Virus record (IMG/VR): IMGVR_UViG_3300025732_000155
Location: 1 to 33,039 of that record
Origin: a virus
Strand: one strand, 5' to 3'
DNA length: 33,039 nucleotides
Shown in pieces: positions 13,263 through 33,039 of the stretch. A program made the translations under genes and the position numbers. The notes beneath the pieces were generated by a model. It searched no databases. It was not told where the DNA came from and was given only the letters and a program-made list of their open reading frames with translations. Positions within the stretch are counted from its first letter, which is position 1. The number at the start of each line of letters is the position of its first letter.

Positions 13263-13671
13263 TCGCTGCGGCGAAACCACTGTTATTTGGAAAAGCGAAG
13301 GGCGGGAGAAGTACTGCAAACAATGCTGGAGTTGCCAAAAGACCAGCGGAGTTAGACAAACATCTGCCAAGACACGCAGTACGGCTCTCAGCCCCCGCTC
13401 TCCAAAACAACGTAGGATTGAAGCCGCCTACAGTGTAATACGTAAGGCTTATCTGGAAACGCACTCTATGTGTGAAGCGCACCTGGCTGGTTGTGCCACC
13501 TACGCCACTGATATACATCATAAGGCTGGGAGAGGGACGCTAACGTTGGACAGCACGACATTTCTTGCTGTATGTAGATCCTGTCATATGTGGATCGAGA
13601 CTCATCCCAAGGAGTCTAAAGACTTGGGTTTCAGTATTGAACGTTTAAAAAACAATGATCATGAAGATTGA
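13237..13671 (+). CDS. HNH endonuclease-like protein with zinc ribbon
   Basis: 144 aa. The N-terminus has CxxC pairs (Cys 8, 11 and Cys 27, 30) forming a probable zinc ribbon. The C-terminal half is an HNH fold: Cys 79 and 86, the TDIHHKAGRG segment with catalytic His 94-95, then CRSCHMWI (Cys 113, 116, His 117) giving a beta-beta-alpha metal site. HNH proteins cut DNA, with one divalent metal per site; phage members serve in packaging, recombination or as free-standing homing enzymes. The start overlaps the upstream gene by 26 nt and the stop overlaps the ATPase gene. Its target is not evident. Confidence 0.75.
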   Translation: MLTKKKKCSRCGETTVIWKSEGREKYCKQCWSCQKTSGVRQTSAKTRSTALSPRSPKQRRIEAAYSVIRKAYLETHSMCEAHLAGCATYATDIHHKAGRGTLTLDSTTFLAVCRSCHMWIETHPKESKDLGFSIERLKNNDHED

Positions 13672-14641
13672 TTCAAAAGCATTAGCCGAAATTCTAGCAG
13701 ATAAACTCATCAAGGGTGAGTTAGCGGACTTGAAAGACTTGTCTGTAGAAAGTTTGATTGACTCTTCTGTTGAAGAGGCTCCTAAAGAAGAAGAGGAGAT
13801 TGTAAAGCCTAAACTTGAAATGGATCCTTCCCTGTATATGGAGATTGGTGACTGTTTCATGGTCCAGCAGGCAATCCACAAGTTGCTGGTACGTAACGTA
13901 AAGGCTGGCGTAAATACCATGTTGTTGGGTCCCACTGGCGTGGGCAAAACGGAGTTGGTTGCCAACATCGCCCGCGAGACAGACATGCCATTAACGATAT
14001 TCGATATGGGTACCATGACGGACCCTATCATGTCCTTGGTAGGTACTCACGCAATCGAGGTTAAGGATGGTATCACCACTTCAACATTCAAGCGTTCCAG
14101 GTTTTCTGAGGTTATCCAGAAACCAGGCATTGTCCTTTTGGACGAGATATCGCGTGCAAGCGCAGCAGCCAATAATCTGCTGTTCCCATGCCTTGACTTC
14201 CGTAGGACTCTTGCCATGGAGTATGATTTCACAGACAATACTCCTGTGGAGATACATCCTGATTGCGTATTCATCAGTACCGCGAATCTTGGTTCCCAGT
14301 ATACTGGTACCCACAAGCTTGACCGCGCATTGGTTGATCGCTTCATGACCATCGAGATTGATCCTCTGGGAACAGACAGCATCAAAAAGATCGTGAAGCA
14401 CAACTATCCTGAGATCAAAGCGCCTCAGCGTAACAGCATTGTAAAATGCTATGACGCGATCAACGCTGCGCATGACGAGTATAAGATCTCGTTCAATTTG
14501 TCGTTGCGTCACCTCAAGATTATCTGCGGCATGGTCGTGGATGGATTCACCATCTACGATTCATTCTACATGGTATGCAAGGGCGTAGGCAACAAGGATG
14601 GTGTCAAAGCCATCGAAACTATTCTAAACGATATCAAATGA
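13655..14641 (+). CDS. MoxR/CobS-type AAA+ ATPase 1
   Basis: 328 aa. Walker A GPTGVGKT at 92-99, Walker B IVLLDE at 159-164, sensor 1 FISTAN at 205-210 and a DRALVDRF arginine-finger segment. The acidic N-terminal 55 residues are variable. MoxR ATPases form rings that remodel proteins together with a VWA-domain partner. That partner is the next gene, overlapping by 4 nt. Phage copies are often annotated cobS because of similarity to a cobaltochelatase subunit, but no cobalamin genes are present here, so a chaperone role in virion or host takeover is more likely. ATG at 13655 or 13661. Confidence 0.85.
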   Translation: MIMKIDSKALAEILADKLIKGELADLKDLSVESLIDSSVEEAPKEEEEIVKPKLEMDPSLYMEIGDCFMVQQAIHKLLVRNVKAGVNTMLLGPTGVGKTELVANIARETDMPLTIFDMGTMTDPIMSLVGTHAIEVKDGITTSTFKRSRFSEVIQKPGIVLLDEISRASAAANNLLFPCLDFRRTLAMEYDFTDNTPVEIHPDCVFISTANLGSQYTGTHKLDRALVDRFMTIEIDPLGTDSIKKIVKHNYPEIKAPQRNSIVKCYDAINAAHDEYKISFNLSLRHLKIICGMVVDGFTIYDSFYMVCKGVGNKDGVKAIETILNDIK

Positions 14642-15954
14642 TAGGGTTTGGTTCTCATGGCTGGTCTTCCACGGGTTGGGAGACCAGCTTTTATGGCGGT
14701 TATGAACGTACATTGTATGACATGGCTGATGTCAAGGTTAATTATGACGTCAGGGTCTATACGAATACAAAATCCAGCATGTCATTCTATACTGGTCAGA
14801 AGCTTCTCAAGATGTTTCTGTTGAGGGTTAAAACCCTTAATCTTACTAGTCATTTGATGCATAAGTCCACGGTAGGTACAGCCAAATCCTGGGCTACATT
14901 TGGTAAGGAGAAGAAGGTCATCATCATCTCCCGCGAAGGCATCCAGAAGGCTTTGGATAGGGTCATCGAGAACGAGACGGAATTGAAGAATCTTTTTGAA
15001 CATTACAGGAAAGACATTCTTGACTCTGAGATCGAGTTCACCCTGAAGGACAAAAAGGATGATCCTGGAAAAAGCGATGCATCTATGGTTCTTGATATGA
15101 TTGAGGATACCAAAATAATGAAGCCATACAAGTCTTATGGTAGCATTTCTGGCGACAGCGATGTTCCAGATCCTCAATTCATCATCGAAGCCCATCGTAG
15201 TTCTGAATCCATTCTTAATTCCAAACAGGCTTTGTATGCCAAGCAGATAGTCGAGAAGCTTGACATCACCTTTGATCCAGACCGCGATGAGATCCATAGT
15301 CTGAAGCAAGGCAAATTGGATACTCGTAAACTTGCGGAAGCAGTGGCTCACAATGACCACATCTACTTCCGTACTGAAGAGGACCAGAAGACCAAGCCTT
15401 TCAGCGTAGTCATACTATGCGATGAGTCAGGTTCGATGCGTCATGATGGAAGGATGGAGAAGCAATATGAGCTTGTCAAGATCCTATATGCCGCATTCAG
15501 TGAGATCATGCCTCAGGACCGTATATCCATATATGGTCACAGCGGTGATGAGACTCCTGAGATCTATGTATATCAGGACAAATACAATCCTGGATTCACC
15601 AAGACCATAGATTGGATGACCAGACGTGACATGCGTGAGAACTATGATGGTCCAGTCGTTGAGACTCTTCATGAGCGTATCCGTTCCCAGACCAGCGACA
15701 ACATCCTGATGCTCATCATCAGCGATGGTCAGCCCGCTGGTGATCATAACTATGGTGGTCCAGAAGCGATGGCGGATTTGAAGCGTATCATTGAGAAATG
15801 CAAGCGCGACAACTTCGTGACCATGGGCATTGGCTTTGGTTTCTCTGGAGTTAAAGAGATCTATTCCTACAATACCGTCATAGATGATATGAAGGACGTT
15901 GTGGAGAAGACCACCACTCTGTTGAACAAGGTCGTGAAGACTGAATTCCAATAA
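14638..15954 (+). CDS. VWA-domain protein, CobT-like partner of ATPase 1
   Basis: 438 aa from the ATG at 14638 that overlaps the ATPase stop (ATGA). The N-terminal half is lysine-rich and helical. The C-terminal third is a von Willebrand A domain with the MIDAS metal site CDESGSM (residues 261-267) and the later LIISDGQPAG segment. In MoxR/VWA and CobS/CobT pairs this protein brings the substrate or metal ligand to the AAA+ ring. Coupled translation supports a complex. The operon is closed by a terminator at 15953-15989. Frames opening upstream (14575) are within the ATPase gene and are not used. Confidence 0.8.
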   Translation: MIGFGSHGWSSTGWETSFYGGYERTLYDMADVKVNYDVRVYTNTKSSMSFYTGQKLLKMFLLRVKTLNLTSHLMHKSTVGTAKSWATFGKEKKVIIISREGIQKALDRVIENETELKNLFEHYRKDILDSEIEFTLKDKKDDPGKSDASMVLDMIEDTKIMKPYKSYGSISGDSDVPDPQFIIEAHRSSESILNSKQALYAKQIVEKLDITFDPDRDEIHSLKQGKLDTRKLAEAVAHNDHIYFRTEEDQKTKPFSVVILCDESGSMRHDGRMEKQYELVKILYAAFSEIMPQDRISIYGHSGDETPEIYVYQDKYNPGFTKTIDWMTRRDMRENYDGPVVETLHERIRSQTSDNILMLIISDGQPAGDHNYGGPEAMADLKRIIEKCKRDNFVTMGIGFGFSGVKEIYSYNTVIDDMKDVVEKTTTLLNKVVKTEFQ

Positions 15955-17187: not shown

Positions 17188-17275
17188 GACCGATTGTCGT
17201 AAGCGGGAATGAATACCGCCTTGGGTAACGAAACTGCTAGGCAGTGTGATGGGGGTTCGAATCCCCCATCGGTCA
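17188..17275 (+). tRNA. tRNA-like gene 3, class II size, anticodon not resolved
   Basis: Perfect 7-bp acceptor (GACCGAT at 17188-17194 with ATCGGTC at 17268-17274), discriminator A, perfect T arm (GGGGG, TTCGAAT, CCCCC). A long variable arm (ACTGC, TAG, GCAGT) gives 88 nt, the size of Leu, Ser or Tyr tRNAs. The D-loop region includes AAGCGGG with a plausible G18-G19. The anticodon arm cannot be drawn normally: the best hairpin in that place is TACC, GCCTTG, GGTA with a 6-nt loop. CCA is not encoded. Confidence 0.55.
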
Positions 17276-17290
17276 CTTAAACAATACGTC

Positions 17291-29919: not shown

Positions 29920-30159
29920 TATACAATAAGATTAAGTAAAGTTGAAATAGAGTATTTCAGAGCATCTGTTGATGAAAATTTTGTAAGTGCTTTTGAGAAA
30001 GATAAACTTTTAAAAACAATAGTATCTGTTGCTCAAGAAGATTATAACAGAGCTGCAACAATAGCACATATACCTTTTAAACCATTATCTGTAAATCACT
30101 TATTAATATTTTTAGATACAGGTGATCCTTATGTTGATAAATACGTAACAAATGAATAG
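29908..30159 (+). CDS. Small AT-rich hypothetical protein
   Basis: 83 aa, also starting MENK. Helical and acidic (VEIEYFRASVDENFVSAFEK), with no membrane segment. Strongly AT-rich like its neighbour, in contrast to the following VWA gene. It overlaps that gene by 8 nt. Not recognised. Confidence 0.6.
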   Translation: MENKYTIRLSKVEIEYFRASVDENFVSAFEKDKLLKTIVSVAQEDYNRAATIAHIPFKPLSVNHLLIFLDTGDPYVDKYVTNE

Positions 30160-31297
30160 ACATGAAAACCTGGCAAAGGTCTCAAAGGATCTTATGCTGA
30201 AGGAACCGTTCTACGGACTGTTCCTGATCATGCTGAACAAGGTGTGGACTGACAATGTTCCCACCGCGGGAGTTGGGCGTAATGGCATCAACTACCAATT
30301 GTATATCAACCCAGCGTTCTGGGATAGTCTGACTGACATTCAGAAGATGGGTCTGTTGAAGCATGAACTGCTCCATATGGGTTTCATGCACGTAACGGAG
30401 TTTGACCATCTTACTGACAAGGAACTCCGCAACGTTGCCATGGACATTGAAATCAATCAGTATATCGATGATTCCTGGTTACCAGAAGGCGGTTGTACCA
30501 TCAAGTCCATAGAGGCAAGTCTTGGTATCAAACTCAAGACCAAGATGGGTACCAAGTATTATTATGATGAGCTGATGAAAGTCAAGTCTCAGATCAGTAA
30601 TGAAGTAATGAAAGCCATAGGCGACAGTCACGCCACCTGGGAGGAGTTTGATGACATGGATGAAGCAACCCAGAAGCTCATAGTCAAACAGACTGAACAC
30701 ATCCTTACGGAGCTTGCAGAGAATGTCAAGAAGAGTACTGGCAACATACCTGGCGAGTTTGAAGGTATCCTTAGAAGGATAATGTCCAAGGAACCTCCCA
30801 AGTTTGACTGGCGTGGTTATCTCAGAAGGTTTGCTGGATCCAGTATGGAGATTTATACCAAGAAGCTCCGCCGCAAACCAAACAAAAGATTCGAAGACAA
30901 TCCTGGTCTGAAGATCAAGAAGCGCAGGCATATCCTTGTCGCCGTGGATACATCAGGTTCTGTGAACAATGATGAACTCAAGGAATTCTTCCACGAGATA
31001 GATCACATGCATAAGACTGGTTGCGAAGTAACGGTGATGCAATGCGATACAGTGATACGTCACAAGCAATCCTATAAGAAGAACATGGATATCAAAATCT
31101 ATGGCAGGGGAGGCACAAGCTTTTACCCTGTGATAGAGTATTACAACGCCAGTAATGGCAAGTACAGTTGCCTTGTATATCTAACTGATGGTGAAGCATC
31201 CGCTCCGCCTAAAACAAAAGGACGAATGCTTTGGGTATTGAGTTCACAATCCAAGCGCAACCCTGAATTAATTGGACCACAAATAGTATTAAACTGA
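30152..31297 (+). CDS. Metallopeptidase-like/VWA protein (DUF2201 type), partner of ATPase 2
   Basis: 381 aa in two parts. The N-terminal part has KHELLHMGFMH with HELLH at 71-75, a zinc-binding helix. The C-terminal part is a VWA-like domain with the MIDAS motif VAVDTSGSV (Asp 266 to Ser 270) and YLTDGEAS. This fits the putative metallopeptidase plus VWA-like proteins that accompany MoxR-type ATPases. The ATPase gene starts at the stop of this one (TGATG at 31295-31299). Whether the peptidase site is active is not known. It is unrelated in order and N-terminus to the first VWA protein of this window. Confidence 0.8.
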   Translation: MNRHENLAKVSKDLMLKEPFYGLFLIMLNKVWTDNVPTAGVGRNGINYQLYINPAFWDSLTDIQKMGLLKHELLHMGFMHVTEFDHLTDKELRNVAMDIEINQYIDDSWLPEGGCTIKSIEASLGIKLKTKMGTKYYYDELMKVKSQISNEVMKAIGDSHATWEEFDDMDEATQKLIVKQTEHILTELAENVKKSTGNIPGEFEGILRRIMSKEPPKFDWRGYLRRFAGSSMEIYTKKLRRKPNKRFEDNPGLKIKKRRHILVAVDTSGSVNNDELKEFFHEIDHMHKTGCEVTVMQCDTVIRHKQSYKKNMDIKIYGRGGTSFYPVIEYYNASNGKYSCLVYLTDGEASAPPKTKGRMLWVLSSQSKRNPELIGPQIVLN

Positions 31298-31427
31298 TGT
31301 CACAGCAAGTAAACCTCACAAGTGAGGAATTAAAAGGATTTATCAAACACATTGTAGACAACAATAGATTCCTGCAGCAGCAGGGTAAGAAGCCCGTAGC
31401 GATCAACGTAGAGGGCGAAGCTGGGAT
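31297..31427 (+). CDS. MoxR-type AAA+ ATPase 2, exon 1
   Basis: 43 codons plus 2 bases, from the ATG overlapping the VWA stop to the intron. It ends PVAINVEGEAG, the start of the Walker A P-loop. Read on into the intron, the frame stops after INSK, giving a useless 47-aa peptide; joined to exon 2 it restores GEAGIGKT. The exact 5' splice site after T31427 is set by pairing of CTGGGAT (31421-31427) with the intron guide GTCCCAG, with the required U-G pair at the cut. Confidence 0.8.
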
Positions 31428-31444
31428 TAATTCAAAATAATTTG

Positions 31445-31452
31445 TATTTTTG
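31445..31452 (+). promoter_or_regulatory. -7 box candidate before the intron ORF
   Basis: TATTTTTG, a perfect match to TAnnTTTG, 5 nt before the ATG of the endonuclease. No good -33 TTTG is found at the right distance. It could allow expression of the endonuclease separately from the unspliced message. Confidence 0.3.
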
Positions 31453-31457
31453 TAGGT

Positions 31458-32219
31458 ATGAAACTTCTATTTGAAAACTGCCTACATAAAGACCTAAGTA
31501 AAAAATCTGGCATATACATGCTTATCTGTAATAATCATACTTACATAGGAAGTAGTGTAAATATATATTACAGGTTAAAAAGACATTCTAGTGATCTTTT
31601 AAGAAAAAAACATTCTAATAAGTTCATACAGAACGTTTTTGATAAACATGGTAAAGACAAGTTCTTATTCAAAATCGTAGAATTTTGTGATAAAAACGTT
31701 CTTTTACAAAGAGAAAGTTTTTATATAGACATGTTAAGCCCAGACCTTAATCTAGATTTAAATCCTGTGAAGAGAGAATTTTCTGCGAAATCAAAGCAGT
31801 TGATTTCTAATACTTTAAGACAAGGATTTCAATCAGGACGAATCAAAAATGGAAACTCAAAACCTGTATATAGATATACTGTGGAAGGTATATTTATAGA
31901 TAGTTTTGAATCATGTTCTACAGCGGCAAAAGCTGTAAATGGTAAGTTTAAAGGCGTATCTAAAGCTGCGTCTGGAAAATCTAATTCAGCATATGGTTTT
32001 ATTTGGTCATATGATAAAAAAGATGTTCTTATCAAAAGAGTTGAACAAAACAAAAAAGTACAAGCTGTTGATATTCAAGGTAATATAATAAAAACTTGGA
32101 TTAGTATTAAAGCTTTAGCTAAAAGTTTGTCAATTTCTCCATCATCATGTTCCATTAGGATTAAAAAAGGAAACTTTTACAAAGGTTTAAAATATGAATT
32201 TTGCCAAGTCCCAGGGTAA
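31458..32219 (+). CDS. GIY-YIG homing endonuclease of the group I intron
   Basis: 253 aa. The catalytic domain is at residues 14-95: SGIYMLICNNHTYIGSS with GIY 18-20 and YIG 29-31, the conserved Arg (RLKRH) and metal-binding Glu 86 (QRESFYIDML). Two NUMOD1-like DNA-binding repeats follow (about residues 144-195 and 207-245; for example FESCSTAAKAVNG). Such enzymes cut intronless alleles and spread the intron by repair. AT-rich compared with the exons. The last codons (FCQVPG and stop) contain the P10 and guide sequences of the intron, so protein and ribozyme share these bases. Confidence 0.9.
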   Translation: MKLLFENCLHKDLSKKSGIYMLICNNHTYIGSSVNIYYRLKRHSSDLLRKKHSNKFIQNVFDKHGKDKFLFKIVEFCDKNVLLQRESFYIDMLSPDLNLDLNPVKREFSAKSKQLISNTLRQGFQSGRIKNGNSKPVYRYTVEGIFIDSFESCSTAAKAVNGKFKGVSKAASGKSNSAYGFIWSYDKKDVLIKRVEQNKKVQAVDIQGNIIKTWISIKALAKSLSISPSSCSIRIKKGNFYKGLKYEFCQVPG

Positions 32220-32438
32220 AAATTCCGTGAATTCAGGGAAACTCCACTGGCGTGGACAATCCTGAGCCAAGCCTTATAGGGATATAAGGAAGGTGCAACG
32301 ACTAGGGTATGGAGTCTAGAACAGACAGTAAAACCCCACGAGCGCGGAACATCAGAAATGATGATGATATAGTCTGAACTGCATGTATAAATAAAGATGC
32401 AGAAGTATAGGATAAAGAGCCTATACGATAACAAATTG

Positions 32439-33039
32439 AGGCAAAACCAGCACCATACTACAGCTTGCAGATGAACTAGGTCTCAAATGCGTAAAGCTAA
32501 GCTTATCGCAGATCGAGGAGATCGGTGACCTTGTGGGTTATCCGCATAAGGAATTCGAAGTATGCAAGGATGAAGGTCCATGCAAATGGGTTCCTGAATC
32601 CATGCTGCAGACTTATATCGAATACAAGTACAAGCCTACTGGCAACAAGCGTATGACCCACGCAGCACCTGAATGGGTGAACGATCTTCAAGAAGGTGGT
32701 ATCCTTATCCTTGACGACTATACCCGTGCAGACAGCAGATTCATGCAGGCTGCCATGGAAATCATAGACCGTCAGGAGTATATCTCTTGGAAGCTTCCTA
32801 AAGATTGGCATGTGATCCTGACCAGTAATCCTGACTCAGGTGATTATCATGTATCCAGTCTGGATCCTGCACAGAAGACTAGGTTTGTAACAGTCAATCT
32901 TAAGTTTGATGCGGACTGCTGGGCTCGTTGGGCAGAGGAGAATGGTATCGATGGCCGTTGTATCAACTTCTTGTTGATGCATCCAGAACTTGTAAGCCAG
33001 ACCACCAATGCACGTAGCATCACCACGTTCTTCAACTGT
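32439..33039 (+). CDS. MoxR-type AAA+ ATPase 2, exon 2 (runs off window)
   Basis: Begins with A32439, which completes codon 44 (ATA, Ile), then GGC AAA ACC (GKT). 200 further codons are visible and remain open at the right edge. Walker B is GGILILDDYTRAD, sensor 1 LTSNPDSGD, and the arginine finger region LDPAQKTRF. Only about 20% of the wording resembles ATPase 1 by eye, so the two are different branches rather than a recent duplicate. The VWA/peptidase partner gene is immediately upstream of exon 1. Likely a ring ATPase that remodels proteins with that partner. Confidence 0.85.

Follow-up and report, generated by a model that had tools for sequence, protein, structure and literature searches.

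The td intron of phage T4 is a group I intron whose endonuclease, I-TevI, is located in P6. Targeting of codons for critical residues is a known strategy of such introns (PMC2988022, PMC3984707), and phage genes with several introns are also known, i.e., a single Twort gene with three introns and the DNA polymerase and TerL genes of Bastillevirinae (PMC11878797). According to the available text of PMC10643990, inteins occupy several nearby sites of one ATPase gene, e.g., haloarchaeal MCM, and the available text of PMC7824862 describes a pair of MoxR and metallopeptidase-vWA genes in group 2.2 jumbo phages with a proposed role in virion assembly and processing. Here, we analyse a 33,039-nt stretch of viral DNA (the window; IMG/VR record IMGVR_UViG_3300025732_000155, positions 1 to 33,039), in which a MoxR ATPase gene is very probably interrupted by a mobile IA-like group I intron between bases 2 and 3 of the Walker A Ile codon. 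The intron would be excised by its ribozyme, would spread by endonuclease homing and would belong to a family that has settled in several motifs of the MoxR gene.

The split MoxR gene and its predicted splice junction

All features of the locus lie on the plus strand. The partner gene (30152..31297) encodes a DUF2201 putative metallopeptidase (HELLH) with a VWA-like domain (Pfam DUF2201_N, 3e-17; DUF2201, 3.9e-16); it is intact in the window and split by other introns in relatives. The MoxR identity of the interrupted gene, proposed as part of a MoxR/VWA pair in an earlier reading of the sequence alone, is borne out by its Walker A (GEAGIGKT) and Walker B (ILILDD) motifs, by PHROG 1297 and by the DUF2201/VWA gene directly upstream. 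Exon 1 (31297..31427; 43 codons plus 2 nt) is colinear with intronless homologues and ends in GEAG-AT, and exon 2 (32439..33039) begins with the A that completes ATA, followed by GKT. Exon 2 alone matches the PHROG 1297 ATPase at 5.7e-27 and Pfam AAA_5 at 5.8e-4, the latter with a score slightly under the cut-off. It reaches the window end incomplete; a further 219 nt are present in a second contig, L003.

Several lines of evidence support the intron and its boundaries. First, the Rfam group I covariance model RF00028, suggested as a check in the sequence-only reading, matches positions 32165-32396 (+) over its full length (model 1-253) with 81.6 bits (E 1.8e-19) against a cut-off of 50 bits. 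Second, the search for related phages with an intronless allele, likewise suggested there, returned 79 intronless homologues in IMG/VR, all of which read across the junction as GEAG-I-GKT or a near variant of it, have exactly one residue, Ile or Leu, at the junction and neither gain nor lose a residue relative to the predicted joined exons, GEAG-ATA(Ile)-GKT. Comparison with these colinear homologues places the 1011-nt intron at 31428..32438, with the omega G as its last base (32438..32438), so that the splice sites (31427/32439) and the restored ATA codon are those originally read from the sequence. Third, the split falls at the same base in 22/22 sequences with an intron at this position (site A; duplicates counted), and all of these introns start with TAATTC and end with G. 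Fourth, a U.G pair at the 5' splice site and a terminal omega G occur in all 99 rows of the wider comparison (duplicates counted), although some of the boundaries there were first placed by pattern, with a reading-frame check afterwards. As a virus contig from a metagenome, the window might join unrelated DNA through faulty assembly, but this is extremely improbable, as the same intron sits at the same base in the second contig (L003/L086), and 20 more contigs from many metagenomes share the split base.

Between 26440 and 32450, and also past 32508, the window and L003 do not differ. The 58 bp in between (32451-32508), shortly after the end of the intron, have eight differences, all synonymous, and resemble a tract of recombination or co-conversion. 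No intronless allele more than 75% identical to the exon 2 protein of the window was found and, therefore, no near-identical empty site. A blastn search of the exons against named phages gave only short matches, inside the intron core, and tblastn of the spliced ATPase identified seven distant phages at ∼26% identity, so that neither search gave a close cultured relative. Five further, distant relatives came from scanning bacterial genomes; their metagenome bins are assigned to different phyla. Elsewhere in the window, a second AAA+/VWA pair (13655-15954; PHROG 249 and a CobT-like VWA gene) has an intact Walker A motif, and ARAGORN reports one tRNA-like gene with an ambiguous anticodon (17188-17276).

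Predicted ribozyme fold and the endonuclease in the P1 loop

In the predicted fold, exon 1 would pair with the guide sequence to form P1, and exon 2 with neighbouring intron bases to form P10. The exon strand of P1, CTGGGAT (31421..31427), faces the guide GTCCCAG (32208..32214) with the U.G pair at T31427, and its third codon base is G in 13/13 distinct intron alleles; P10 pairs TTTTGCC (32199..32205) with GGCAAAA (32440..32446). Both helices thus have the 7 bp originally proposed, and among 20,000 random choices of exon, 23 gave pairing equal to their combined 14 bp. P1 and P10 lie at a near-fixed distance before the core across insertion sites, and the guide changes with the exon, i.e., CUGGGAU/GUCCCAG, UGCGGAU/GUCCGCA, CGUGCU/GGCACG, ACGCGU/GCGCGU and UCGGAU/GUCCGA. 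We regard this tracking of the exon by the guide from site to site as the strongest evidence for the predicted P1. In introns at site C3 (see below), P10 is often unusually long, at 11-12 bp, and reaches 16 bp in one contig (L251).

The group I core from P3 to P9 is present, including the guanosine site in P7. P3 pairs 32223..32229 with 32343..32349 and shows compensatory changes in 44 cores, P4 (32233-32238/32260-32265) and P5 span 32233..32265, and P9 (32379-32384/32397-32402) and the covarying P9.1 (32405-32411/32420-32426) span 32379..32426. P7 was read by eye directly from the sequence, as GACTA (32300..32304) pairing with TAGTC (32370-32374). In the consensus fold of the 44 distinct related cores, 97.9% of cells are paired, with double changes in 22 of 32 pairs. 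The RF00028 alignment places a ∼36-nt insertion between P7 and the 3' strand of P3, where P7.1/P7.2 lie in subgroup IA, and it is from this insertion, and not from a subgroup model, that we infer the IA-like assignment. As the sequence and the covariation suggest, the intron RNA would excise itself and ligate GEAGI to GKT.

A feature that the sequence-only reading did not include is an endonuclease in the P1 loop, with a frame that contains the guide sequence. It is a 253-aa GIY-YIG and NUMOD1 protein (31458..32219; Pfam GIY-YIG, 3.8e-10; NUMOD1, 1.5e-8), in which G18, Y20, Y29, G31, R39, E75 and N98, among them the catalytic Arg, Glu and Asn, are invariant across seven sequences. The frame extends 12 nt past the first guide base and, therefore, guide and P10 bases double as codons; at site C3, most endonuclease frames end just short of the guide. 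Values of dN/dS of ∼0.1-0.4 between relatives suggest that the endonuclease is under purifying selection. Five nucleotides before its start lies TATTTTTG (31445..31452), a TAnnTTTG box found in 41/58 related introns against 3.3 expected, albeit in rows that are not independent, and usually 4 nt before the start codon. It resembles the −7 element of Bacteroidota promoters and is a possible promoter element. Family membership, purifying selection and the discordance between introns and exons described below all point to homing, in which the endonuclease would cleave intronless alleles and repair would then copy the intron in.

Unspliced translation stops at 31438-31440, just within the intron, as would be expected if splicing had been lost and the ATPase were a pseudogene. 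We consider such a dead intron very improbable, because the core, P1, P10, the endonuclease and both exons show no damage and are conserved among site-A relatives, and because all eight exon 2 differences between the two phages are synonymous.

Insertion sites in the MoxR/metallopeptidase-VWA module

MoxR had been noted as an unusual host gene for group I introns, which understates the case, as it is the main host among the nearest relatives of this intron family and not an isolated one. Among the best 80 of 270 relatives found in IMG/VR by endonuclease similarity, and leaving aside the second copy of the window phage, 77/79 are located inside or next to the same MoxR gene, ∼71 of them with both MoxR exons on the contig. 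Within the same best 80 of 270, two contigs (L195 and L200) have the Walker A motif of another MoxR-like ATPase split, at GEPG/TGKT. A scan from a free-standing endonuclease relative returned many other GIY-YIG genes, mostly matched in the nuclease domain only, and we therefore claim confinement to MoxR for the nearest endonuclease relatives only.

Introns occupy five positions in three motifs of MoxR, i.e., site A in Walker A, site B at D/LVG, and sites C1 (R/A), C2 (A/D) and C3 (D/S) just after Walker B (DDYTRAD). Three more sites lie in the partner gene, i.e., D (HEL/LH), E (MD/xEIN) and F (GG/T), the last of which falls where the VWA domain probably binds metal. The two-gene module thus has eight insertion positions, nearly all in catalytic or otherwise conserved motif codons. 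The introns at D, E and F encode LAGLIDADG endonucleases (E versus F, 44% identical; D versus E, 34%), except that the D intron of three contigs (L159, L160 and L241) is 303 nt long and has no long reading frame. Several phages have introns at two sites, e.g., A and C3, B and C2, or C3 and D. One intron, in L055, gave no Rfam match in the local scan and 34.6 bits in the whole-record scan, and is supported by its split exons, endonuclease and P1. We left splits at MoxR residues 88-104 in five contigs (L175, L204, L285, L290 and L295) uncounted, as these are 205-334 nt long and an intron was not demonstrated. In L159 (4820-4840), one base is missing compared to L160 a little upstream of the splice site, which is either a frameshift or a sequencing error.

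Across 74 records, each 20 kb or longer (4.34 Mb in total) and chosen by their module genes and not by introns, 10/11 group I introns fall inside the module, which makes up ∼4% of the DNA; since lineages repeat, counting lineages gives 5/6 (p ∼8e-7). The one intron outside the module (L161, G054:22004-22299; 102 bits) lies in a helicase gene and apparently splits a QRxGR motif. Two further loci were observed. A strong group I match (L470:1818-2043; 118.5 bits) follows a motif like ILEDAQYLMA in a P-loop gene and is accompanied by a short related endonuclease. In L373 (2971-3693), a free-standing GIY-YIG/NUMOD1 endonuclease gene sits precisely between a VWA gene and a MoxR gene, neither of which has an intron, and is a possible partner in collaborative homing.

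Probable horizontal spread, prevalence and comparison with known systems

Three observations argue for horizontal homing of the introns. First, the endonucleases from sites A, B and C3 group in their tree into one clade per site. Second, nine changes of the site-A intron are required on the MoxR tree, at least six of them forced, and 16 are required for C. Third, L176 and L190 are 92% identical in their introns versus 67% in exon 2. The nearest MoxR relatives of the window, its own second copy aside, have no intron, and its nearest introns sit in distant MoxR backgrounds. The homing strategy in conserved codons that had been proposed for this intron is supported. The insertions would persist because many phages share the conserved target codons and nothing short of an exact deletion gives the enzyme back. 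Codons that match the guide at the 5' splice site are close to fixed in intron alleles compared to intronless ones (GGG, 13/13 versus ∼4/166; GCG-GAT, 32/35 versus 4/137; xxG-GAT, 4/4 versus 1/163), as would be expected from co-conversion in the course of homing or from selection for P1. Exon 1 ends in GGAU at site A, the window's own, and at B and C3. It is possible, though on balance doubtful, that the family moved between nearby catalytic motifs of MoxR with rewriting of the guide, and that the LAGLIDADG family did likewise in the partner gene. If so, these introns would document in nature how group I introns reach new sites, whether through reverse splicing or through retargeting of the endonuclease.

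The sequence-only reading also raised the idea of regulated splicing. In a scheme of this kind, the ATPase and, in relatives, its partner would be made only when the ribozyme folds, e.g., late or at high GTP. The presence of introns in both genes of one module and the "molecular switch" role proposed for phage introns (PMC11878797) speak for this idea. However, any intron is present in only ∼13 of some 220 contigs found via MoxR or partner-gene exons, and at differing positions (∼6%, possibly an underestimate because split genes may rank lower in exon-directed searches), and no regulatory element was identified. That the intron is optional speaks against a switch that is required, and the proposal is thus unsupported and, in our estimate, improbable. 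An optional selfish element fits the patchy and varied placement better than a control device, although splicing may be regulated in particular phages.

Altogether, the module appears to be a new phage host for group I introns. It offers related introns at nearby sites together with rewritten guides and intronless alleles to compare, and with this series one can test how introns come to colonise new sites. In practical terms, annotations of environmental phages may present MoxR and metallopeptidase-VWA genes as broken or truncated. The repeated invasion suggests that the module is important to these phages. A literature search, which covered few subscription journals, found no description of a group I intron in MoxR. 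The pair in group 2.2 jumbo phages has the same architecture as the window module, and the available text mentions no introns there (PMC7824862). Haloarchaeal MCM inteins likewise occupy several nearby sites in one ATPase, as far as the available text describes them, with protein splicing there and RNA splicing here.

The kind of intron is known, and its host module and the density of sites in it appear undescribed. Like td of T4, which has I-TevI, and further phage group I introns with GIY-YIG endonucleases, the window intron combines a group I ribozyme, a U.G pair at the 5' splice site and an omega G with a GIY-YIG endonuclease that has separate DNA-binding parts and with insertion in codons for critical residues (PMC2988022, PMC3984707). 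Unlike in td, the host is MoxR and not td/nrd, and the endonuclease lies in the P1 loop, in a frame containing the guide. As in Twort and Bastillevirinae, several group I introns share one conserved phage gene; by contrast, the host genes here encode a chaperone-type ATPase and, as its partner, a metallopeptidase; together they have eight positions, and the endonuclease family differs between the two.
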